From: Campylobacterales bacterium
GTDB taxonomy: Bacteria; Campylobacterota; Campylobacteria; Campylobacterales; Nitratiruptoraceae
Assembly (NCBI GenBank): GCA_027082175.1
Contig: JALWIX010000094.1
Coordinates: forward strand, 1 to 37,804
DNA: 37,804 nt
Direction of reading: 5' to 3'
The notes under the pieces were generated by a model, which saw nothing but the letters and a program-made list of their open reading frames with translations, did not search any database and was not told the DNA's origin. A program made the position numbers and the translations under genes. The first letter of the stretch is position 1, and the number at the start of each line of letters is the position of its first letter. This document shows positions 2,396 to 18,480 of this stretch, piece after piece.

Positions 2396-3454
2396 ATGTT
2401 TGACTATTACGATTTAAGAAAATTTATATTTATGTTTGATCCGGAAACGGCTCACGATATCGTAGAGAAGTTCTTAAAAAACGCCGACTATTTCCCTACT
2501 CTTTTTAACCCTTTCATAGAAAAAAATTTCATAGACGACAAAAGGCTAAACCAAAAAATTTTTGGAAAAACGTTTTTAAACCCCGTAGGGCTTGGAGCGG
2601 GTTTTGATAAAAACGCAACTATGGTCAGAGCGATGCTCGCTTTTGGTTTTGGATTTACTGAGATCGGAACGGTTACACCAAAACCTCAAAGCGGCAATCC
2701 AAAACCAAGACTATTTAGATACCCCCAATATGAATCGATTCAAAACGCTATGGGTTTTAACAACGACGGAATGTATGAAGTGGCAAAAAGGGTAAGAAAA
2801 CTCTACCCTTTTGCTATACCAATAGGCGTTAATATAGGAAAAAACAAAACCACTCCCCAAAGCGAAGCTTTGAAGGACTATGAAAAACTTATAAATCAGT
2901 TTAAAGAGCTTTGCGATTATATGGTGATAAATATCTCCTCTCCAAATACGCCGGGTCTTAGAGACCTTCAAAACGAAAAATTCATAAAAGAGCTATTTTC
3001 AATGGCTAAAGATATAACCGATAAACCTATTTTATTAAAAATAGCGCCAGATATGGAGATTCAACAAGCTATCGACCTTACATCTATGGCTGTTGAAAAT
3101 GGCGCAGACGGCATAATAGCCACAAATACGACTATCGACTACACACTTATAAAAAATGCGAAAGATTTTGGCGGGATAAGCGGAAAAGTTTTAAAGAAAA
3201 AGAGTTTTGAGATATTCAAAGCAATATCTAAAGAGCTTTTCGGTAAAACTCTACTTATAAGCGTAGGCGGGGTGGATTCTGCCAAAGAGGCTTACAAAAG
3301 ATTAAAAGCGGGAGCATCTTTGGTTCAAGTTTATACAGCGCTCATTTTCAAAGGACCCTCTTTGATAAAAAACATAAACGAAGGTATTTTGAGGCTTATG
3401 GAGAGCGACGGATATAAAAATATAGAAGAAGTTATCGGAGCAGAACTAAAATGA
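2396..3454 (+). CDS. pyrD: Dihydroorotate dehydrogenase (quinone), class 2
   Basis: Oxidises dihydroorotate to orotate in pyrimidine synthesis and passes electrons to the membrane quinone pool. At 352 aa it has the length of class 2 enzymes, including an N-terminal helical extension (about residues 1-45) that docks on the membrane. Class 2 signatures are visible: NPVGLGAGFDKNA for FMN/phosphate contacts, INISSPNTPGLR carrying the catalytic serine, and IATNTT and SVGGV near the FMN phosphate site. A ribosome binding site AAGAGG precedes the ATG. The 3' end overlaps the next start by four bases (ATGA), so the peptidase is translationally coupled. Confidence 0.95.
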   Translation: MFDYYDLRKFIFMFDPETAHDIVEKFLKNADYFPTLFNPFIEKNFIDDKRLNQKIFGKTFLNPVGLGAGFDKNATMVRAMLAFGFGFTEIGTVTPKPQSGNPKPRLFRYPQYESIQNAMGFNNDGMYEVAKRVRKLYPFAIPIGVNIGKNKTTPQSEALKDYEKLINQFKELCDYMVINISSPNTPGLRDLQNEKFIKELFSMAKDITDKPILLKIAPDMEIQQAIDLTSMAVENGADGIIATNTTIDYTLIKNAKDFGGISGKVLKKKSFEIFKAISKELFGKTLLISVGGVDSAKEAYKRLKAGASLVQVYTALIFKGPSLIKNINEGILRLMESDGYKNIEEVIGAELK

Positions 3455-4770
3455 AAAAAAGATTTTTTGCAACAATTTCGTTGCTTATAACAATATTTAC
3501 GGGAGGATTGATGGGCAGCAGTTTACCAAAATATTACGAGAAAACGCTAAAAAACGGGCTCAAAGTAGTAGCGATACCAATGAAAAACAACTCAAACGTT
3601 ATAACTACCAACATCTTTTATAAAGTTGGAAGCAGAAACGAAGTTTTAGGTAAAACCGGTATCGCTCATATGCTTGAACATCTCAATTTCAAATCTACAA
3701 AAAATCTTAAAGCCGGAGAGTTTGACCAGATAGTCAAGAGTTTCGGCGGAGTAGATAACGCCTCCACCGGATTTGACTATACCCACTACTTCATAAAATC
3801 GAGCGCTCAAAATCTTGATAAATCCCTTGAACTATTTGCAGAACTTATGGAAAACTTGGCGCTTAAAGATGAAGAGTTTCAACCGGAACGCCAAGTAGTA
3901 GCCGAAGAGAGACGATGGAGAACGGACAACAATCCAGTGGGATATCTATATTTTAGACTATTTAATAACACTTATATCTATCATCCGTACCACTGGACTC
4001 CCATAGGTTTTATGAATGATATTTTAAATTGGACTATAGAAGATATAAAAGAGTTTCACAAAATCTACTATCAGCCAAAAAACGCTATCATCGTGGTTGC
4101 GGGCGATGTGGATAAAGATGAAGTTTTTAAAAAAGCCCAAAAATATTTTGAACATATCAAAAACTGCTGCGATATACCAAAAGTGCACCAAACTGAACCG
4201 AAACAAGATGGAGAAAAAAGAGTAATCCTCTATAAACCCAGCGAAGTGGAGATGATTGCCATAGCGTACCATATACCAAACTTCGCGCATCAAGATCAAT
4301 TTGCCCTATCGGCCATCGCATCTTTGTTAAGCGAAGGGAAAAGCAGCAGACTATACAAAAAGCTGGTTGATGAAAAGAAGATGGTGAATCAGCTTTACGC
4401 CTACAACTTGGAGCTAAAAGACCCCGGTGTTTTCTTGTTTATGGCTGTTTGTAACCCCAAAATCAAAGCTGAAGAGGTAGAGAGTGAGATTTTAGAAGAG
4501 ATAGAAAAAATAAAAAGAGGAGAAATAGATAAAGAGGAGCTTGAAAAGATTAAGATAAACACAAAAGCGGATTTTATCTTCTCTTTGGAAAACTCTAGTA
4601 ACGTAGCCGATATCTTTGGAAGCTATTTTGCAAGAGGAGATATCGAGCCGTTATTACATTATGAGGAAAATATTGATAAACTAACGCCTAAAATTTTACA
4701 AGAGGTTGCAAAAAAATACTTTTATAAAGAAAACTCCACAACAGTGATTTTGAGAAAGGAAAAGAGATGA
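3451..4770 (+). CDS. Secreted M16 family zinc peptidase
   Basis: Pitrilysin/insulinase-type metallopeptidase. The inverted zinc motif HxxEH reads HMLEH at about residues 73-77, and the downstream conserved Glu is in the AEERRWR stretch about 75 residues later. The N-terminus has a Sec signal peptide (MKKRFF, then a hydrophobic run ending near GSS at about residue 24), so it acts in the periplasm. At 439 aa it is a single-unit M16B-like protein with two homologous halves; only the first half carries the zinc site. It overlaps pyrD and dapA by four bases on each side. Its substrate cannot be read from the sequence. Confidence 0.9.
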
Positions 4771-9440: not shown

Positions 9441-9659
9441 CAATTTTTCTGCCAGCCACATTTTAATAATCGCCTGCCGACTTACTCCAATATGCTGTGC
9501 CTCTTTATCTAATTTTTCAATCATCCAAGCTGGAAAATCTATGTTTACTCTTTTTACTTTTTGAGATTTGTTTACCATTTTTATCTTTGATGTATCAAAA
9601 TATTCTAAAATATCCTCTTTGTTTTCATCAAATTTTTTATCTATTTGAGATGCTTTCAT
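9426..9659 (-). CDS. brnA: BrnA-type antitoxin (ribbon-helix-helix)
   Basis: A 77-aa antitoxin whose C-terminal half has the ribbon-helix-helix pattern: a basic beta strand (VKRVNIDFP) followed by helices WMIEKLDKEAQHIG and SRQAIIKMWLAEKL. It should neutralise the BrnT ribonuclease and repress the shared promoter. Its start overlaps the end of brnT by 23 bases, and a GGAGG lies nine bases before the ATG inside brnT. The stop codon falls inside direct repeat A. The toxin-first order is usual for brnTA. Confidence 0.85.
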   Translation of the reverse strand: MKASQIDKKFDENKEDILEYFDTSKIKMVNKSQKVKRVNIDFPAWMIEKLDKEAQHIGVSRQAIIKMWLAEKLQSLN

Positions 9660-9912
9660 ATAATTTTACCTCCTTTTTTCTTGATCTTCTAACAGATATA
9701 ATCCTAATTTTTTCTTCTCTATAAGTTATAATAGCTGTATAATATTTATTGTTAATTTTTCCAATAACTAAAAATCTATTTTCATCTAACTCTTGCTTTG
9801 ATGGTAGTTCAAATGCAAATGGGTCATCCCATAATCTTTTTGCTTCTTCAAAATCTATGCCATGTTTTTCTTTGTTTTTCATACTTTTATTCAAATCATA
9901 TTCAAATTTCAT
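9637..9912 (-). CDS. brnT: BrnT-type ribonuclease toxin
   Basis: A 91-aa toxin of the BrnT (DUF497) family, a RelE-like RNA-cleaving fold. The landmarks are FEYDLNKS...KHGIDFEEA at the start, DDPFAFE in the middle, RFLVIGKI, and the conserved end IRIISVRRSRKKEVKLYE with the catalytic basic residues. Its start has no Shine-Dalgarno. A TATAAT box at 9919-9924 puts the predicted transcript start on the A of the ATG, so a leaderless mRNA is plausible. It is co-transcribed with brnA. Confidence 0.87.
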   Translation of the reverse strand: MKFEYDLNKSMKNKEKHGIDFEEAKRLWDDPFAFELPSKQELDENRFLVIGKINNKYYTAIITYREEKIRIISVRRSRKKEVKLYESISNR

Positions 9913-10033: not shown

Positions 10034-10264
10034 TTAACTATCACAACTTGGGGGCTCGGTATCGCAAGAAGTTCCCCCGCAATACTTTGCCTCCAACTCT
10101 TCAAGAGCCTTTCGCATCTCGGTAAGTATCAATCTTGCGGCTAAATTTTCATCTAGCTCGGGAATATCCCATCCATATCTTCTCATCCACTTTTCAAAAA
10201 CCTCTTTAGTATCTTCATGTATTTCTTCGAAGTATCTACATTCCTCTTTATATTCGGCTTTCAT
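10034..10264 (-). CDS. Small protein with Cys-rich tail, partner of the SdhB-SdhE-like fusion
   Basis: A 76-aa protein that I do not recognise. It is strongly acidic and helical (many Glu, with EEIHEDTKEVFEKW and LTEMRKALEELEAK), and ends in a cysteine-containing tail (YCGGTSC ... SCDS) with three Cys, plus one near residue 9. Its ATG shares one base with the stop of the 340-aa gene (TAATG), so the two are translated together and probably act together. It has no signal peptide or membrane segment, so it is cytoplasmic. The tail could bind a metal or make disulfides; that is a guess. Confidence 0.75.
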   Translation of the reverse strand: MKAEYKEECRYFEEIHEDTKEVFEKWMRRYGWDIPELDENLAARLILTEMRKALEELEAKYCGGTSCDTEPPSCDS

Positions 10265-11286
10265 TAAACTTCCTCTTTTTTGTTTTCTATCATACTTTTA
10301 AGCTCATTAAATGAGATGATTTCTAGATATATTTCCCTGCCAGCTACTTTTTCAAAATTCCCAAAATTTTCTCTAAAATATTTAGCATCCTCATCTTTTG
10401 CGCATATCAAAATCTCCGCTGCGCTATCCATCGCATCAAGCAGTACCGCCCCGCCCTTTTTAAAAGCCATTTTTGGATTTACTTCAAGCAGTGTTTGACC
10501 TGCAAGCTTTTTTGATTTTGAAAACTCTACGATATTTGCACCAAACTCTTTTAATCTACTTTTTACATCTTCATCTGCAAAATACAAAGCGACATTAATA
10601 TCTTTTAAACTCTCTAGAGTTGGAATTTCAACTTTTTTAGAAAATTTGTAGCAAATATTTTCTAAAATACCGACAGTCGGTTTTTTAGCCATATTTTTTA
10701 GCTCTTCAATATCACTAGAATAATCTTTTCCCAAAAAAACGTTATTTTCATATTCTGAGTCCCAAAGTCCGCTTACGCCTTCGCTGATTGCTTTTAAAAT
10801 CTCTTCTTTATTTTCGTTTCCTTTTTTAATCATACTATATGCCGTAACCAATACGGCATCACCTATATAATCTAAAGAGTATTCAAAGGCACTAGATGCA
10901 TAATGAACATCATATAGCGATTTAAAATATTGGAAATCTTTTTCATCCGCAAATGGCTCAATAAGTTTAAAAGATTCAAAAAAATCTCTATCATCGATAA
11001 CCATGTCATCAACAGCTCTATACTTTGATACCGGCTCCATCACTATTTCAGTACCAAACTCATCTATTATCATCTTTGCTTTCGCCAAACTATTTACAAC
11101 TTTACCATTGATTTTTACATAAAAATACTCTTTTTTCGGATAGTCAAAATTAAAATCTTTTTTCTTTATAAAAGAGCAGATTTTTTCTATAGTATCTTGT
11201 TCATCAACATCTAAAACAAAACTTTTGTAATATGGCAGATAATCCATTTTTGCATTGAAAAAAAATGCTTTTATATGTAGTCTCAT
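10264..11286 (-). CDS. Cysteine-depleted SdhB–SdhE-like fusion protein
   Basis: A 340-aa protein homologous along its length to the fumarate reductase subunits SdhB and SdhE of this window. Residues 1-115 follow the SdhB ferredoxin fold: FFFNAKMDYLPYY against FRFNAETDYLPHY, and FGTEIVMEPVSKYRAVDDMV against FGTELTFDPVSKNRAVKDMV. The middle follows the 4Fe-4S domain (YIGDAVLVTAY against YLGPAALVKAY). The end follows the second CCG domain of SdhE (NPKMAFKKGGAVLLDAMD against APKTANRLSGNALVDAID). The aligned Fe-S cysteines are all replaced; the three Cys present lie elsewhere. Domain order resembles the TfrB subunit of archaeal thiol:fumarate reductase. It starts at ATG with AAAGGAGC, is intact, and so is probably functional but not an electron carrier. 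Cytoplasmic; role unknown. Confidence 0.85.
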   Translation of the reverse strand: MRLHIKAFFFNAKMDYLPYYKSFVLDVDEQDTIEKICSFIKKKDFNFDYPKKEYFYVKINGKVVNSLAKAKMIIDEFGTEIVMEPVSKYRAVDDMVIDDRDFFESFKLIEPFADEKDFQYFKSLYDVHYASSAFEYSLDYIGDAVLVTAYSMIKKGNENKEEILKAISEGVSGLWDSEYENNVFLGKDYSSDIEELKNMAKKPTVGILENICYKFSKKVEIPTLESLKDINVALYFADEDVKSRLKEFGANIVEFSKSKKLAGQTLLEVNPKMAFKKGGAVLLDAMDSAAEILICAKDEDAKYFRENFGNFEKVAGREIYLEIISFNELKSMIENKKEEV

Positions 11287-11347
11287 AAAAGCTCCTTTTA
11301 TTATCCAATTCTACTACTAACACATTCTATCAAAAAAGATATTTCTT

Positions 11348-12427
11348 TTAGCTTTTTAAACTTCTATGTGCAATCTCTTCCAATAAAACTGTTGCATAAC
11401 TTCCCTTAGGCAAAAAAAATCCAAGCTCCACCCACGCGTTATCCTCTTTATATTCAAACTTTAAATCTTGCGGAAAAACCCACGCAAAACGTCTATCACC
11501 AAAAATCTTTATTCTCTCATCATCAAAATCTTTCTCAATATCCCTAGCTAAACCGTTGCTCCTTTTCACCTTTACTCCCGCCAAAAGCCCCGTTGGTGAA
11601 ATATCTCTGTTTTGAAATCTTTTTGATTCATCAATCACATTTTCTATCTCAAAAAACTTTCCGAAAGGATAATGGCTCGATAGATCACCGGGCAGCAACT
11701 TAAAAAACTGCTTTTGTTTTTTAAGCTCATCTATAATTCCACTTGGAAGGTTCAAGAGATTTTTTAGTTCGTTTTTTTTAAAAGAGTTTACAAGTTTTGA
11801 GATCTCCACTCTTTTTGAAAGCCAAAGATTAAAAAGGTAGCTTTGGTATGCATTTATAAAGAGTTTCTCTTTCTTTTTGTTTCTCTCTTTTCTTTTTTGT
11901 TCTACTATCTCTTTTCCTATGATATAGTTTTCCCCATCAACTCCAAATCTTTGATACCCAAAAAAGTTTGGCACTCCCTCTTTTTCAATAATTTTTAAGA
12001 CATTTTCTATCTTTTTTGCGTCAACCGGCATAACTTTTTTTAGTCTTATAAAAAACCTATTTCCTTTTAAATGACCGATTCTTAATTTATTTTTATGTCT
12101 TGTGATCTCTATTATCTTGATATTTTTATGAGAAAAGCTTTTTAAATCTTCTTCAAATTTTTTGTTTATAGAGATATATTGATACGTAAGCGCGTTTTTA
12201 TCTTTTAGACCGGCATAACCTATATCTTTTAACTTTACTCCAAGTTGCTCGCTAAAAGCTTGAAGCATCTGCCATGTAGTAAGATTTTTCTTTCTAACTT
12301 TAAGTATAAGATGCTCCCCATCACCGCTAAAAGGATATAAAGGCTCCTCTTCTACGACAAAAGTTTCGGGGGATTGTTTAAAATAAAAATCTATTGGCGA
12401 GTGGTCTAAAAAAAATAGTCTATTCAT
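11348..12427 (-). CDS. truD: tRNA pseudouridine(13) synthase TruD
   Basis: Converts U13 of tRNA-Glu to pseudouridine. The TruD signature GYAGLKDKNALTYQY, carrying the catalytic Asp, is at about residues 75-89. Other family landmarks are VPNFFGYQRFG, SPTGLLAGVKVK and the C-terminal GSYATVLLEEI. Length 359 aa is normal. The ATG at 12427 overlaps the 3' end of the PIN gene by eight bases. truD and thiL are neighbours in Campylobacter as I recall; here a toxin-antitoxin pair separates them. Confidence 0.94.
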   Translation of the reverse strand: MNRLFFLDHSPIDFYFKQSPETFVVEEEPLYPFSGDGEHLILKVRKKNLTTWQMLQAFSEQLGVKLKDIGYAGLKDKNALTYQYISINKKFEEDLKSFSHKNIKIIEITRHKNKLRIGHLKGNRFFIRLKKVMPVDAKKIENVLKIIEKEGVPNFFGYQRFGVDGENYIIGKEIVEQKRKERNKKKEKLFINAYQSYLFNLWLSKRVEISKLVNSFKKNELKNLLNLPSGIIDELKKQKQFFKLLPGDLSSHYPFGKFFEIENVIDESKRFQNRDISPTGLLAGVKVKRSNGLARDIEKDFDDERIKIFGDRRFAWVFPQDLKFEYKEDNAWVELGFFLPKGSYATVLLEEIAHRSLKS

Positions 12428-12830
12428 CAGTTTCCTTCAAAAACCCTTCATAATCCAAAATCTTTACTCCACAATCTATAAACTTTTTATCATTTGTTAA
12501 AAATATTTCGCATTTATTCTCTTTAGCGCAAAAACATTGAAGCGTATCTTCTAAATCACTATTATGCTTTAAAGCATATGCGATAGCACTTTTTATAACA
12601 TTTTTGCCAAAAGGAACGATATGCCAATCATTTAATACAGCTTGAAAAAATTTTAATGTCTTTTCTTTATCTTTTATAATATAATAGATTGTGCTCAACA
12701 TATCTTCACTTATATAAACTTCATAATCTAAAAGTCTGTCGATTAACGTTTTGTGATATTTATGATTTAATCTCTTTTTTATTAAAATATCTAAAACTAT
12801 ATTAGTATCTAAAAATATTTTACTCTTCAC
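12420..12830 (-). CDS. PIN-domain ribonuclease, VapC-like toxin
   Basis: A 136-aa PIN-domain protein. The acidic metal-binding set is recognisable: the N-terminal IFLDTNIVLD (first Asp at about residue 8), Glu/Asp in SEDML, the DLEDTLQ motif in the middle, and the TNDKKF motif near the C-terminus. Such proteins cut tRNA or other RNA and act as toxins. It starts 11 bases inside the end of the upstream antitoxin-like gene and ends eight bases inside truD, so this module shares the message of thiL and truD. Confidence 0.87.
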   Translation of the reverse strand: MKSKIFLDTNIVLDILIKKRLNHKYHKTLIDRLLDYEVYISEDMLSTIYYIIKDKEKTLKFFQAVLNDWHIVPFGKNVIKSAIAYALKHNSDLEDTLQCFCAKENKCEIFLTNDKKFIDCGVKILDYEGFLKETDE

Positions 12831-13116
12831 CCACTTTCCTTTTTGCAGCTACCTCTCTTAAAGTATAAATATCTTTATCTAACAAATCTTTTTCCATCTC
12901 TATACTTCCGGCAAATTTTAAAATTCTTTTTAATCTCTCCTCTTTCTCTCTTTTCTCTTTCTCTTCTATCAACTTTTTTATCTCATCTGCATATTTGTTT
13001 GATACAAAAATCCCTTTACTCTTTTTTGTCTTTTTATCTTCAATCTCAATCAAATCATACTCATCTAAGATTTTTATATTTCTTGCAAGCTCTCTGATCC
13101 CTATCTTTTTTGTCAT
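12820..13116 (-). CDS. Antitoxin-like protein paired with the PIN toxin
   Basis: A 98-aa protein whose N-terminus (IGIRELARNIKILDEYDLIEIED) resembles prevent-host-death/AbrB-like DNA-binding antitoxin starts, followed by a highly charged helix (KKLIEEKEKREKEERLK) and an acidic/basic tail that would wrap the toxin. It directly precedes and overlaps the PIN gene by 11 bases, the usual antitoxin-first order for PIN systems. The exact antitoxin family is not certain. Confidence 0.78.
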   Translation of the reverse strand: MTKKIGIRELARNIKILDEYDLIEIEDKKTKKSKGIFVSNKYADEIKKLIEEKEKREKEERLKRILKFAGSIEMEKDLLDKDIYTLREVAAKRKVGEE

Positions 13117-13167: not shown

Positions 13168-13989
13168 TCAAGTAAAATGATGTGGCTTACATATATTTCT
13201 GTAAGGCTTAAAAGCGGCTTTTGCAAAAATTGTTATAGGTGTTCTTGTGATTTTTGATATATTTAAAATTGCTTTTAAATCTCTTTTGTCGAATGCAAAC
13301 AGAAGCTCATACTCTTCACCGCTACAACCTACCCTTTTTGGAATTTTTTCAAAAAACTCAAATCCTATACGGTTTAGTTTTGAAAGTTTACCAATATCCT
13401 CAAAAAGCCCGTCGCTTATATCCATAGCTGCTTTTATATATCGTGAAACTCTTTTCATAAACTCTTTTTTTAAAACCGGTCTTTTAAATTTGGAATATTT
13501 TGATACCTTTACACCCCTAAATAATCGATTTAAGTCTCTTTTTACACTGCCAAGATCACCAGTATATGCCAGATAATACCCCTCTTTTACTCTTTTTCTA
13601 AAAATTGGTTTTTTTGTTTTAGATATCAAAGTTATAGATATATCAATCTTATTTGAAGCTATAGTGTCTCCGCCAATTATTTCAGTTTTATAAAAACTAG
13701 CGCAATCTCTAAGCCCCAAAGAGAGCTCTTTCATACAGATAGGTTTTATGTCTTTTGGCAAACCTATACTTAAAATAGCGTATTTCGGCTCAGCATTCAT
13801 AGCAATTGCGTCTGATATATTTACAGCCATTGCTTTATAGCCTATCTCATAAAGGCTCATCCACTCTCTCTTAAAGTGTATATCTTCAAAAAAAGCATCT
13901 GCGCTATATACAAACCCATCTATATACGCTGCGTCATCTCCTATATGCTTGTTATTAAATAAACTTATAAAAAAGTTCTCTTTATTCAC
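13168..13989 (-). CDS. thiL: Thiamine-monophosphate kinase
   Basis: Phosphorylates thiamine monophosphate to thiamine diphosphate. Family landmarks: HIGDDAAYI near the start, SADAFFEDIHF, the NISDAIAMNAEPKYA metal/ATP site, GGDT, GDLG and AAMDISDGL. I chose the GTG at 13989 because GGCGAGG lies six bases upstream and the protein then begins MNKENFF; longer in-frame starts at 14004 (ATG) and 14025 (TTG) lack a good ribosome binding site. The protein is 273 aa, slightly short for the family. A TACAAT -10 candidate lies at 14016-14021, divergent from the sdhA promoter. Confidence 0.9.
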   Translation of the reverse strand: MNKENFFISLFNNKHIGDDAAYIDGFVYSADAFFEDIHFKREWMSLYEIGYKAMAVNISDAIAMNAEPKYAILSIGLPKDIKPICMKELSLGLRDCASFYKTEIIGGDTIASNKIDISITLISKTKKPIFRKRVKEGYYLAYTGDLGSVKRDLNRLFRGVKVSKYSKFKRPVLKKEFMKRVSRYIKAAMDISDGLFEDIGKLSKLNRIGFEFFEKIPKRVGCSGEEYELLFAFDKRDLKAILNISKITRTPITIFAKAAFKPYRNICKPHHFT

Positions 13990-14083
13990 ACGAAACCTCG
14001 CCATTTTTGGTAAGTATTGTAACAAAGCGGTACTTAAAAAACCTCTTTGTAAATCTTTTAATTTTATTTATCTTATAAAATGG

Positions 14084-14119: not shown

Positions 14120-15832
14120 ATGGAAATACCTATTATAAAAAAAGACGTAATTATCGTTGGAGCGGGACTTGCCGGATGTGCAGCCGCAAGAGAACTTAAA
14201 AAGAGTGGAAAGGATGTTTTGGTACTAACTAAACTCCACCCTCTAAGAAGTCATTCCGGCGCCGCGCAAGGCGGTGTAAACGCCGCTTTGAGCGAAGAAG
14301 ACGATATTGAACTACATATGTTCGATACCGTTAAAGGAAGCGACTATCTAGCCGATCAAAATGCAGTCGAACTTATGTGTAGCAAAGCTCCTGAAACTAT
14401 CAGATGGATAGAAAAAATGGGAGCTGTATTTAGCAGGCGTGGAGATGGTAAGATAGCCCAAAGACCTTTTGGAGGACAGAGCAAACCAAGAGCATGTTTT
14501 GCAAAAGATAGAACCGGACTTACGCTTTTACAAACAATCTACGAACAAGCTTTTAAAGAGGGAGTAGAGTTCTGGGACGAGTGGTATGTGGCGGATATCT
14601 TATATAAAGATGGAAAAGCTTACGGTGTTGTTGCTTACAACTTAAGAGACTCAAAACCGGCAATTTTTAACGCCAAAGCCGTAATGTTTGCTACAGGCGG
14701 CTACGCAAGAGCTTTCAAAATCAACTCAAACGCACATGCAAATACCGGTGACGGACTAAGTATCTTCGCAAGACACGGACTTCCGCTTGAAGATATGGAG
14801 TTCGTTCAGTTTCACCCCTCAGGTCTTGCAGGAAGCGGGATTTTGATAAGCGAAGCGGCTCGTGGAGAGGGAGGTAAACTTTACAACTCCAAAGGCGAAA
14901 GATTTATGGAAAAGTACGCTCCCGAAAAAATGGAGCTAGCGCCAAGAGATGTGGTTAGTAGAGCAATAGCAAATGAGATAAGAGAAGGTAGAGGCGTAGG
15001 CCCTGACAATATGGCCGTATATCTCGATCTAACCCATCTAGGCGAAGAGAAGATTATGGAAAGACTCCCGGAACTTAGAGACCTAGCTCTAACTTTCCTT
15101 GGCCAAGATATGGTAAAAGAGCCTATTATGATAACCGTTACGGCGCACTACTCTATGGGCGGTATCCCGGTAGATATAGACGGACATGTGAGAAAAAACA
15201 AAGAGGAGTTTGTTGAGGGACTATACGCGGCGGGCGAGTGTGCTTGCGTAAGTGTTCACGGCGCAAATAGACTAGGCGCAAACTCTTTGTTGGAAGCACT
15301 CTTTTTCGGCAGACACGTAGGAGAGTCTATAGCTAAAGATTTGGATAATATCTCATTTGAAGAGGCTCAAAAAATCGAAGCAAACAGAATGCTTGAGGAG
15401 ATGGAGTTTCTTCTAACAAACAATGGAAAAGAGAGTACGGCGCAGTTAAGAAAAGAACTTCAAGACAGTATGTTTGAAAACGCGGGCGTTTTTAGAACAG
15501 AAGAGTCATTAATAAAACAGAAAGAGAAGTTAAAAGAGCTTAAAGAGAGATTTAAAAATATACGAATAGAAGATAAATCAAAAACATTCAATACAGACCT
15601 TCAAGAAGCGATTGAACTAGGCCATATGCTAGATTATGCAGCTTTCATAGTTGAAGGCGCGATTGCTAGACGTGAGTCGAGAGGAGCTCACTACAGGGAA
15701 GATTTTACAAAAAGAGACGATGAAAATTTCCTAAAACATACATTAGCTTATATGGATGAAGAAGGAAATATCACTTTAGAGTATATGGATGTGGTACTCG
15801 GCAAATTTGAACCTCAAGAAAGAAAATATTAA
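14120..15832 (+). CDS. sdhA: Fumarate reductase/succinate dehydrogenase flavoprotein, SdhABE type
   Basis: Catalytic FAD subunit interconverting fumarate and succinate. The dinucleotide site VGAGLAGCAAAREL is at residues 13-26. The covalent FAD histidine is H45 in LRSHSGAAQGG. Active-site landmarks include QFHPSG, the ARGEGG loop and VHGANRLGANSL. Length 570 aa is normal. The N-terminus goes straight into the FAD domain with no Tat signal, so the enzyme is cytoplasmic, unlike the periplasmic methylmenaquinol:fumarate reductase (MfrA) of relatives. With SdhB and SdhE it probably serves the reductive TCA cycle or quinone-linked respiration. Good ribosome binding site AAGGAA. Direction of the reaction in the cell is inferred. 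Confidence 0.92.
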   Translation: MEIPIIKKDVIIVGAGLAGCAAARELKKSGKDVLVLTKLHPLRSHSGAAQGGVNAALSEEDDIELHMFDTVKGSDYLADQNAVELMCSKAPETIRWIEKMGAVFSRRGDGKIAQRPFGGQSKPRACFAKDRTGLTLLQTIYEQAFKEGVEFWDEWYVADILYKDGKAYGVVAYNLRDSKPAIFNAKAVMFATGGYARAFKINSNAHANTGDGLSIFARHGLPLEDMEFVQFHPSGLAGSGILISEAARGEGGKLYNSKGERFMEKYAPEKMELAPRDVVSRAIANEIREGRGVGPDNMAVYLDLTHLGEEKIMERLPELRDLALTFLGQDMVKEPIMITVTAHYSMGGIPVDIDGHVRKNKEEFVEGLYAAGECACVSVHGANRLGANSLLEALFFGRHVGESIAKDLDNISFEEAQKIEANRMLEEMEFLLTNNGKESTAQLRKELQDSMFENAGVFRTEESLIKQKEKLKELKERFKNIRIEDKSKTFNTDLQEAIELGHMLDYAAFIVEGAIARRESRGAHYREDFTKRDDENFLKHTLAYMDEEGNITLEYMDVVLGKFEPQERKY

Positions 15833-15841
15833 GGAATGAGT

Positions 15842-16810
15842 ATGGAAAAGCAAAAAGTCACTATTAACGTTTTTAGGTTCAATGCAGAAACAGACTATCT
15901 TCCTCATTATGATAAATTCGAGATAGAGGTTTCAAAAGAAGAGGTTGTTTTAGATGTTTTAAACAGAATAAAATGGGAATATGATGGAAGTTTCACATAT
16001 AGAAGAAGCTGCAGACACGGGATATGCGGAAGTTGCGCCATTAAAGTAAACGGAAGAAGCACTCTTGCATGTAAAGAGAGAATGATAGATATGATAGAAC
16101 TTTTTGGAACAGAACTTACTTTCGATCCTGTTTCTAAAAATAGAGCCGTTAAAGATATGGTTGTTGACAAAAGCGATTTTTGGAAAAAACATGACTCCAT
16201 CATCCCTTATCTAGTTGCCGATATCGACGAGCATCCCGAAAGCGAAAATATAGTTCCTCCAAATGAAGCCGAGCAGATTGATGAGGCCGACTACTGTATT
16301 CAATGCGGATGCTGTTACTACGCTTGTCCCGTAGTAAATGAAGCAAATGAGGACTACTTAGGACCTGCAGCCTTAGTAAAAGCTTACAGATTCAATGCCG
16401 ACGTAAGAGATGGAGCCAAAAAAGAGAGACTAAAAATCGTAGATAAACTTGGAAAAGGAGTTTGGGACTGCGTAAAATGTTATGAGTGTACGGAAGCCTG
16501 TCCTAAAGAGCTTGATCCTATGAGCAAAATAACCAAACTGCACAATCAACTATTCCAAGAAGAAGTTGTGCAAAAAAATGTTGCCAGCCGTCACGCCGTA
16601 GGATTTAAAAAATCTATAGAAAAACATGGTATTTTGGATGAAGGAATGTTAGTCGCATATAGCGAAGGTTGCGCGGTATTTAAACATATCCCCGAAGCTT
16701 TGGCTATGTGGAAAAAAGGCAAAATCGTTATGCCTTGGGAGATGCCGAAATCCAAAAAACTTGATGAGATTAAAAAACTTATCAAAATTTCATCTACAGC
16801 TAAATTTTAA
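15842..16810 (+). CDS. sdhB: Fumarate reductase/succinate dehydrogenase iron-sulfur subunit
   Basis: Carries electrons from the flavin to SdhE. The plant-type [2Fe-2S] site uses C57, C62, C65 and C77 (CRHGICGSC then ACK). Two further cysteine clusters follow: CIQCGCCYYACP at about 152-163 and CVKCYECTEACP at about 210-221. Length is 322 aa. I prefer the ATG at 15842 because AAGGA just after the sdhA stop is six bases away; the ATG at 15836 would touch the ribosome binding site. A C-terminal extension of some 80 residues follows the last cluster. Its paralogue at 10264-11286 has lost all these cysteines. Confidence 0.93.
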   Translation: MEKQKVTINVFRFNAETDYLPHYDKFEIEVSKEEVVLDVLNRIKWEYDGSFTYRRSCRHGICGSCAIKVNGRSTLACKERMIDMIELFGTELTFDPVSKNRAVKDMVVDKSDFWKKHDSIIPYLVADIDEHPESENIVPPNEAEQIDEADYCIQCGCCYYACPVVNEANEDYLGPAALVKAYRFNADVRDGAKKERLKIVDKLGKGVWDCVKCYECTEACPKELDPMSKITKLHNQLFQEEVVQKNVASRHAVGFKKSIEKHGILDEGMLVAYSEGCAVFKHIPEALAMWKKGKIVMPWEMPKSKKLDEIKKLIKISSTAKF

Positions 16811-16821
16811 AAGGAAAAAAG

Positions 16822-17700
16822 ATGAGTTTAAAGTATGCGCTTTATACAGGATGTACGGCAAGAGAAAGTACGCCGGAACTGCTAAAATCTACTTTGGCTG
16901 TTGCTAAAAAACTAGATATCGAACTTGTTTTGTTGGATGAAGCAAGTTGTTGCGGAGCAAGTCATCTTCAAGATTTTGACGATTTTTTATCTTTGGTTTT
17001 AAACGCAAGAAATATCTGCTATGCAGAAATGCTTGAACTTCCTATGATAACAATATGCAATACTTGTCAATTAAATACGGCGCTGACTAAAAAAAGACTT
17101 GACGAAAATCCTGAACTTAAAGAGAGAGTAAACGAAAAACTTGGGGAAGTCGGTCTTGAATATAAAGGAAGTGTTAGCGTCAGACACTTTTTATACGCGC
17201 TTATAGAGGATTATGGGCTAGATAATCTTAGAAAAAAGGTTGTAAAACCTCTAAGTCAGTTCAACATAGCGCCATTTTACGGATGTCACAACATAAGACC
17301 TAGCGAGCTTCACCATTTTACAAACAGCACTAAAGAATCTGCTTACAACCCTACAAGTCTTGATGAATTGATTGAGGCTTTGGAAGGAAATAGCGTCGAT
17401 TACGAACATAAAAACAAGTGTTGCGGATTTCATGTTGATCTTCAAGCTCCAAAAACCGCAAATAGACTAAGCGGTAACGCTTTGGTTGACGCTATAGACA
17501 ACGATGCCGATATGATGGTTACTCCTTGCCCTCTTTGTCATCTAAATCTTGATGTTAAACAGCATGCGGCATCACGTGAGGTTGGAAGAGATATAAATCT
17601 GCCGGTTCTTCATCTTCCTCAACTAATAGGTCTAGCTCTTGGATGTACTCCTGAGGAAGTAGGAATCCAACATAACGTTACTGAAGTTAATATAGTTTAA
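16822..17700 (+). CDS. sdhE: SdhE/HdrB-like subunit with two CCG domains
   Basis: Third subunit of the SdhABE enzyme, related to heterodisulfide reductase HdrB. Two cysteine-rich CCG domains are complete: C11, C43-C44, C79 and C82 in the first; C155, C200-C201, C236 and C239 in the second. In relatives these bind special [4Fe-4S] clusters and the subunit passes electrons to or from quinone or thiols at the membrane surface. There are no membrane helices. Length 292 aa. It follows sdhB by 11 bases with AAAAGGA. Its stop overlaps the stop of the convergent minus-strand gene. Confidence 0.93.
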   Translation: MSLKYALYTGCTARESTPELLKSTLAVAKKLDIELVLLDEASCCGASHLQDFDDFLSLVLNARNICYAEMLELPMITICNTCQLNTALTKKRLDENPELKERVNEKLGEVGLEYKGSVSVRHFLYALIEDYGLDNLRKKVVKPLSQFNIAPFYGCHNIRPSELHHFTNSTKESAYNPTSLDELIEALEGNSVDYEHKNKCCGFHVDLQAPKTANRLSGNALVDAIDNDADMMVTPCPLCHLNLDVKQHAASREVGRDINLPVLHLPQLIGLALGCTPEEVGIQHNVTEVNIV

Positions 17701-18096: not shown

Positions 18097-18480
18097 ATGC
18101 CAAAAATCAATAGATATGTAGATATAAGTGAAGTTGAAAGAGAGTCTAAAAAAGATTATATTGATAGACATTCTCCATTCGTTCACTGTGAAAGCAGCGC
18201 AAAAAAAGGTGAAAAATTTAAAGTCAAAGTAAAAGTTGGCGAAGAGTATTCTCACCCTGACGATTTTGATCACTATATCGCTTATGTTCAATTATGGGAT
18301 GGTGAAAGACTTCTTGGACAAGCAACTTTTACTCCTGGAACATTAGGCAACGAAAAGAGCCAAGTAGAAGTTGATTTTTATATCATCCCTACAAAAAAAC
18401 TTAAACTTACAGCTATGAGCTACTGTACTAAACACGGACTTTGGGAAAGTGATCCTGTAGAAGTGGAAGTAACCGAATAA
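18097..18480 (+). CDS. Superoxide reductase (neelaredoxin type)
   Basis: Reduces superoxide to peroxide without making oxygen, a defence suited to microaerobes and anaerobes. The 127-aa protein is the Ig-like catalytic domain alone, without the N-terminal rubredoxin-like domain of desulfoferrodoxin. The ferrous site ligands are visible: H25, H53 and H59 (HPDDFDH), C110 and H113 (CTKHGLW). The usual Glu-Lys before the first His is Asp-Arg here (DRH). A strong AAGGAGG ribosome binding site precedes the ATG. It is a single-gene transcript bounded by a clear terminator. Confidence 0.9.
   Translation: MPKINRYVDISEVERESKKDYIDRHSPFVHCESSAKKGEKFKVKVKVGEEYSHPDDFDHYIAYVQLWDGERLLGQATFTPGTLGNEKSQVEVDFYIIPTKKLKLTAMSYCTKHGLWESDPVEVEVTE

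Follow-up and report, generated by a model that had tools for sequence, protein, structure and literature searches.

A gene within a 37,804-nucleotide stretch of DNA from a Campylobacterales bacterium (the whole stretch is called the window below) almost certainly encodes a copy of the electron-transfer module SdhB–SdhE that has no cofactors, and in which an SdhB-like part is followed in the same chain by the second CCG half of SdhE. A respiratory electron-transfer module has here shed every cofactor, yet it has been kept across the order, relatives of Helicobacter and Campylobacter included. Already on record for this family are a domain of unknown function (DUF) and an orphan structure, PDB 3KWL. 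The analysis offers an origin for that structure, which has been unexplained since 2010, and turns the DUF into a testable question about the maturation of FrdA-type flavoproteins where the known factor is missing.

The gene and its surroundings

The gene for the 340-aa protein runs from ATG to stop on the minus strand (Table 1), and the plus-strand reading of the same interval contains 16 stops. Its start context is ...ATAAAAGGAGCTTTT-ATG, with a good ribosome-binding site. A preliminary description of this DNA had recognized both the intact frame and the ribosome-binding site, and had left the strand unstated. Upstream, a gap of 61 bases separates the gene from truD on the same strand. Past truD the minus strand goes on with a PIN-domain pair and thiL, after which come, on the plus strand, sdhA-sdhB-sdhE and a desulfoferrodoxin-type gene. 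The SdhA of the window has the covalent-FAD histidine motif SHSGAAQGG (His45) and no N-terminal extension.

Table 1. Positions in the window of the fusion gene, its parts and the neighbouring genes
Feature	Position	Strand	Basis
Cluster-free SdhB–SdhE fusion gene, 340 aa	10264..11286	-	intact frame; AlphaFold pLDDT 94.9
N-terminal SdhB domain (residues 1-112; ferredoxin-like, beta-grasp), its [2Fe-2S] ligand loop missing	10951..11286	-	identity to window SdhB; Foldseek
C-terminal SdhB domain (residues 113-200; helical, normally with two clusters), its ligands missing	10687..10950	-	hhalign
Cysteine-free second CCG half of SdhE/HdrB (residues 229-338)	10273..10602	-	hhalign, Foldseek; HdrB-like_C in relatives
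YDVHYASSAFEYS in place of YCIQCGCCYYACP	10876..10914	-	alignment and column counts
WDSEYENNVFLGKD in place of WDCVKCYECTEACP	10723..10764	-	alignment and column counts
KDED where SdhE has its CPLC ligand site	10387..10398	-	alignment and column counts
Ribosome-binding site AAAGGAG	11292..11298	-	read from the printed sequence
truD, upstream neighbour of the fusion gene	11348..12427	-	PF01142, E 4.9e-68
thiL (thiamine-monophosphate kinase-like), ancestral-locus marker	13168..14025	-	PF00586; adjoins the family in many loci
sdhA	14120..15832	+	PF00890, PF02910
sdhB (type-E), all cluster ligands present	15836..16810	+	own ligand columns intact
sdhE (HdrB-like, ten-cysteine CCG protein)	16822..17700	+	PF02754, E 2.7e-24

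Several neighbours can be recorded in their own right. The desulfoferrodoxin/superoxide-reductase-type gene that follows sdhE (18097-18480, plus strand) is found near the family in many loci, and it stays there even where sdhABE has been lost (L037, L038). A BrnT-type toxin gene (9637-9912, minus strand) lies just downstream of the fusion gene, and the PIN-domain gene with its 98-aa partner (12420-13116, minus strand) is inserted between truD and thiL. The BrnT and PIN genes are present in the congener G003 but absent from the four further family members that were compared; PADLOC defence models gave no match.

Homology and fold

How securely is the protein tied to SdhB and SdhE? Single-sequence comparison with the window SdhB reaches the first domain only, residues 3-113 sharing 39% identity with it (E 8.9e-16), and searches of this kind with the window protein find SdhB models at E 4e-6. 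The window protein passes no Pfam cut-off; Fer2_3 is the only model seen, below its own cut-off. Profile comparison extends the match to the remainder of the chain. In hhalign, the family profile aligns with SdhB over 205 columns that span both SdhB domains (probability 99.9, E 1.7e-35), the partner protein of the two-gene forms aligns with SdhE over 279 columns (probability 99.9, E 6e-33), and the tails of the fused forms align with SdhE 140-295 (probability 99.3, E 4e-20); the control comparison, the SdhB-like part against SdhE, gave a probability of 0.3. Run against the window genome, the family profile finds SdhB (E 3.5e-27 and 3.7e-6 for its two domains) and SdhE (E 1.8e-15).

The AlphaFold model of the window protein has a pLDDT of 94.9 and a pTM of 0.89. 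Its Foldseek matches begin with 3KWL (8e-16), continue with more than 20 SdhB/FrdB chains and then reach HdrB; the match to SdhB 1nek_B stands at 2.8e-10, with a TM score of 0.66 by target length, and the C-terminal part matches HdrB (7bkb_B/5odc_B). The E partner of the two-gene form is also predicted to have an HdrB fold (AlphaFold pLDDT 93.4; TM 0.88), and DUF5644 (PF18712) in relatives covers the part that corresponds to the C-terminal domain of SdhB. The by-eye alignment of the preliminary description, with SdhB and then with the second CCG half of SdhE, is thus upheld by hhalign, AlphaFold and Foldseek; profile comparison and structure prediction, both suggested there as checks, return the SdhB/HdrB fold and not its absence. 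Chance similarity is ruled out by the hhalign E-values for the SdhB-like part and the fused tails, together with Foldseek.

Loss of the cluster ligands

By column counts, all 11 SdhB ligand positions are taken by other residues or deleted in 52 family members. Deletion has removed the first two positions for [2Fe-2S] ligands from 52/52, a cysteine recurs at one ligand position alone (222, in 5/52), and no cysteine column in the SdhB-like half rises above 23%. All 10 CCG ligand columns of SdhE are lost in 49 members, with a lone cysteine at position 201 in 9/49, and the cysteines of the CPLC site are replaced mostly by D, N or S. In the window protein, the loop that holds the first [2Fe-2S] ligands (CRHGICGSC) has been deleted, and the roughly 25-aa linker between the two SdhB domains is missing as well. 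Every ligand loss claimed earlier holds at the 11 SdhB and 10 SdhE positions, with the correction that this first loop, described as changed, is missing altogether.

No homologue examined keeps the cysteines of the clusters, and the same ligand losses in 52 and 49 homologues rule out an alignment error that hides cysteines. Judging from the sequences, electrons cannot pass through clusters of the SdhB/SdhE type in these proteins. The conserved columns of the family look structural, with no candidate active site and no regulatory or ligand-binding signature among them.

3KWL, HP0468 and related enzymes

Relatives of the window protein pass the Pfam models PF18712 (DUF5644) and PF22196 (HdrB-like_C); the window form is too diverged to pass these cut-offs itself. 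3KWL is its top PDB match by sequence (E 2.7e-8), and a 495-aa relative encoded beside a pepF-like gene matches 3KWL over the full length (E 1e-279). By homology to 3KWL and to the members that pass, within a single clade, the window protein belongs with the DUF5644/HdrB-like_C family. The preliminary description had expected family entries with no described function, and Pfam indeed has DUF5644 and HdrB-like_C only.

We strongly infer that 3KWL is HP0468 of H. pylori, because that gene measures 1488 nt by its given coordinates (PMC6090961), which is exactly 495 codons plus a stop, and is listed as DUF5644 (PMC9570263). HP0468 has no assigned function; hydrogen raises its expression, and an association with gastric cancer is given for variants of it (PMC6090961). 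Like the window protein, 3KWL/HP0468 has an SdhB-like part followed by an HdrB-like part, both without cluster ligands; the H. pylori form has 495 aa and a complete E half, whereas the window form has 340 aa and the second CCG half only. Going by gene order, Cj1456c, Cj1459 and Cj1460 are tentative candidates for orthologues in C. jejuni. The open-access literature searched yielded nothing relevant beyond mentions of HP0468/DUF5644, and neither the origin as a cluster-free paralogue, nor the link to sdhABE, nor the spread of the family was found described in it.

The type-E SdhB and SdhE of the window's own operon are homologous to the fusion protein end to end and have the same fold, but they have 11 + 10 ligands, the [2Fe-2S] loop and the inter-domain linker, all of which the window protein has lost. 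The SdhB and SdhE of MFR in Wolinella and Campylobacter have the same SdhB and HdrB-like architecture as the family and keep their clusters, whereas the family does not. MFR is periplasmic, with non-covalent FAD (PMC2680327). The window sdhABE can be ruled out as an MFR, considering that its SdhB (151.6 of 600 bits) and SdhE (231 of 500) fall far under the NCBIfam MFR cut-offs. TfrB, subunit B of the CoM/CoB fumarate reductase, carries clusters and both CCG domains. The window protein resembles it in being one chain with SdhB first and HdrB second, but has neither its clusters nor the full pair of CCG domains, and gave no match to the TfrB model. The order of parts that had been likened to archaeal TfrB is real, but the clusters are absent, and in the tree the family groups with type-E SdhB from the order to which it belongs.

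Ancestry and distribution

In the tree, 55 SdhB-like members form one clade (support 100/100) on a long stem; this clade is sister to 17 type-E SdhB with support 89/76, and MFR SdhB and FrdB fall outside. The tree argues strongly for a single origin of the family and moderately for its placement beside type-E SdhB. The family arose before the families of Campylobacterales diverged, most likely from the order's own type-E sdhB-sdhE. In the tree, forms with two genes (f5, f20, part of f11 and f14) are interspersed with fused ones (f1, f6, f7, f9, f15, f17, part of f11 and f14), which suggests that fusion or fission happened more than once.

The family occurs in about 146 of 299 Campylobacterales genomes, as a fused gene, whose product is often shortened, or an adjacent gene pair; presence and absence were assigned by hand from E-value bands and from loci read directly, and the counts may be off by a few. 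Is it bound to the SdhABE enzyme, which had been proposed as its partner? Type-E SdhE is found in 38 of the 146 genomes, and about 108 are without type-E SdhABE, nearly all of these having FrdCAB. Strict dependence on SdhABE is ruled out by these 108, and SdhABE cannot be the only partner. FrdB does not exceed the cut-off in 28 of the 146, and 27 of these (all but G114) have type-E SdhABE. The gene is absent from about 115 of the 153 genomes that have type-E SdhABE and from some FrdCAB genomes (f14 g40/g70, f11 g36), so complex II as such can do without the family. For a dependence of the family on any kind of complex II, the test has no power, because an SdhB- or FrdB-like match is present in 298/299 genomes.

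In the exception, G114 (99% complete, 110 contigs), the gene pair (L116, on contig C68) is intact and not visibly relaxed. Searches of this genome for SdhB and FrdB found no match, and its only SdhA-like protein (484 aa, 34% identity) is probably an L-aspartate oxidase. The absence of SdhA and FrdA here reflects either a real loss or an assembly gap.

Linkage to sdhABE

Linkage was counted in a 59-locus set and in 78 named loci, 8 of which end too soon and 70 of which are informative. In the 59-locus set, the family gene lies directly before sdhA on the same strand in 12 loci of f6, f7, f9 and f15 (L039, L041, L081, L083, L085, L090, L091, L106-L109, L119), overlapping sdhA by 4 nt in L041 and L106 and separated from it by a small ORF in L107; in two f17 loci it is divergent from sdhA. 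Among the named loci, sdhA comes next in 39/70, usually 100-190 bases away, and the family gene directly follows sdhE in 5/70, these loci being mostly Sulfurovum MAGs that are not independent, from a scan that favoured close relatives of the window. A contig scan with the window protein alone as query gave no match; the named loci were retrieved with an alignment of closer relatives as query.

The linkage falls in several clades of the tree, in two geometries, and supports a tie of the family to the sdh module. The ancestral order was likely thiL, pointing away, and then the family gene, sdhA, sdhB and sdhE in the opposite direction; in the window, the family gene stands on the far side of thiL and truD from sdhABE. 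Tandem duplication may have left part of the linkage behind as a relic. In Helicobacter- and Arcobacter-type genomes the neighbours are unrelated (for example pepF-like, murA-like and HNH genes), and these neighbourhoods gave no functional lead. In the Helicobacter-type loci L046, L047 and L100-L105, another neighbourhood is conserved: on one side of the gene or gene pair is a pepF-like gene with a 156-aa ORF, and on the other a gene for a 93-aa predicted membrane protein.

Possible functions

What could such a protein do? It probably works by docking on partners and not by carrying electrons. Tentatively, we favour a cofactor-free mimic that docks on the SdhA or FrdA flavoprotein during assembly. 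The family protein would carry no electrons; its retained SdhB surface, above all the N-terminal domain, would bind free SdhA or FrdA, and it would serve as a placeholder during flavoprotein folding, FAD attachment and assembly, to be displaced later by the real SdhB or FrdB. The N-terminal domain of SdhB is the one that docks on the flavoprotein in complex II. Identity to type-E SdhB in this domain is 31% for the family, 26.5% for FrdB and 27% for MFR SdhB, compared with 18%, 22% and 23%, respectively, in the C-terminal domain; the excess in the N-terminal domain may be due to fold constraint.

The placeholder would take the position held in other bacteria by SdhE/YgfY/SdhAF2, a small unrelated protein, and is proposed to act alike, on the Fe-S subunit's flavoprotein surface. 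In E. coli, SdhE/YgfY sits on the surface of FrdA that faces FrdB while FAD is being attached, and covalent flavinylation is lower when the Fe-S subunit is missing (PMC5773532). The known range of SdhE/YgfY/SdhAF2 covers alpha, beta and gamma proteobacteria (PMC5042078), in agreement with our search for this Sdh5/SdhAF2 flavinylation factor (PF03937), which found it in 0/100 genomes of the order, the window's included, with E. coli and Caulobacter controls positive. The sdh linkage, the retention of the N-terminal domain, the absence of Sdh5 and the covalent-FAD motif of the window SdhA all fit the placeholder reading. Counting against it are G114, where the pair is kept with no SdhA or FrdA found, the many SdhABE genomes and some FrdCAB genomes without the family gene, and the report that flavinylation is autocatalytic in thermophiles without SdhE (PMC9557727). 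The preliminary description had suggested that the protein might regulate, assemble or compete with the enzyme; linkage supports the tie to the sdh module, and among the three we tentatively favour assembly. A more specific proposal strikes us as unlikely: that, in an order with no SdhE/SdhAF2, a duplicated SdhB–SdhE pair lost its clusters and turned into a new type of assembly factor for complex II, a chaperone dedicated to holding the place on SdhA/FrdA. If true, it would also account for H. pylori HP0468 (3KWL).

It is possible, if doubtful, that the protein is a scaffold unrelated to complex II and that its linkage to sdh merely survives from a tandem duplication at the thiL locus. Such a role would fit the genomes of many families that keep the gene and lack SdhABE, G114, where neither SdhA nor FrdA was found, and the unrelated neighbours in Helicobacter- and Arcobacter-type genomes. 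Against it, the linkage to sdh turns up repeatedly, in several clades and with two geometries, and the N-terminal domain is retained better than the C-terminal one.

The homology and operon evidence is shared between the placeholder and a competitor or brake, which would occupy the SdhB/FrdB site or pair with SdhE or SdhB and so hold part of the enzyme inactive until needed, and a position directly before sdhA would suit stoichiometric control. Considering that the family is kept in about 108 genomes without type-E SdhABE, and that its conserved columns have no regulatory or ligand-binding signature, we think this quite unlikely. Perhaps the protein is instead an extra structural subunit of mature SdhABE or FrdCAB, for example a bridge to the membrane or to other enzymes, since the SdhB and SdhE halves are both kept, paired or fused, as if the B-E contact matters. 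The window form, however, has lost the first CCG half of SdhE, and we know of no counterpart in solved QFR structures; such a role is very improbable.

The fusion gene is under purifying selection, with a dN/dS (omega) of 0.16 between the window and the congener G003, compared with 0.02-0.10 for its neighbours. The idea of a decaying copy can be dismissed: the gene does evolve faster than sdhB (43-50% identity within f1, against about 75% or more for SdhB), but decay is contradicted by this dN/dS, the confident model, the order-wide presence, and dozens of lineages whose frames are intact and whose ligand losses agree, and the earlier judgement that the gene is not decaying stands.

Two irregularities within the family may be noted. 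One member (L086, positions 2523-4151, in G168) has 542 aa, being extended at its N terminus, and stands on a very long branch of the tree (3.58). Two Sulfurovum MAGs, HLG_WM_MAG_04 (L139, L148) and S06.Bin221 (L153, L157), have two family copies each, on different contigs, which may be true paralogues or the product of mixed bins.
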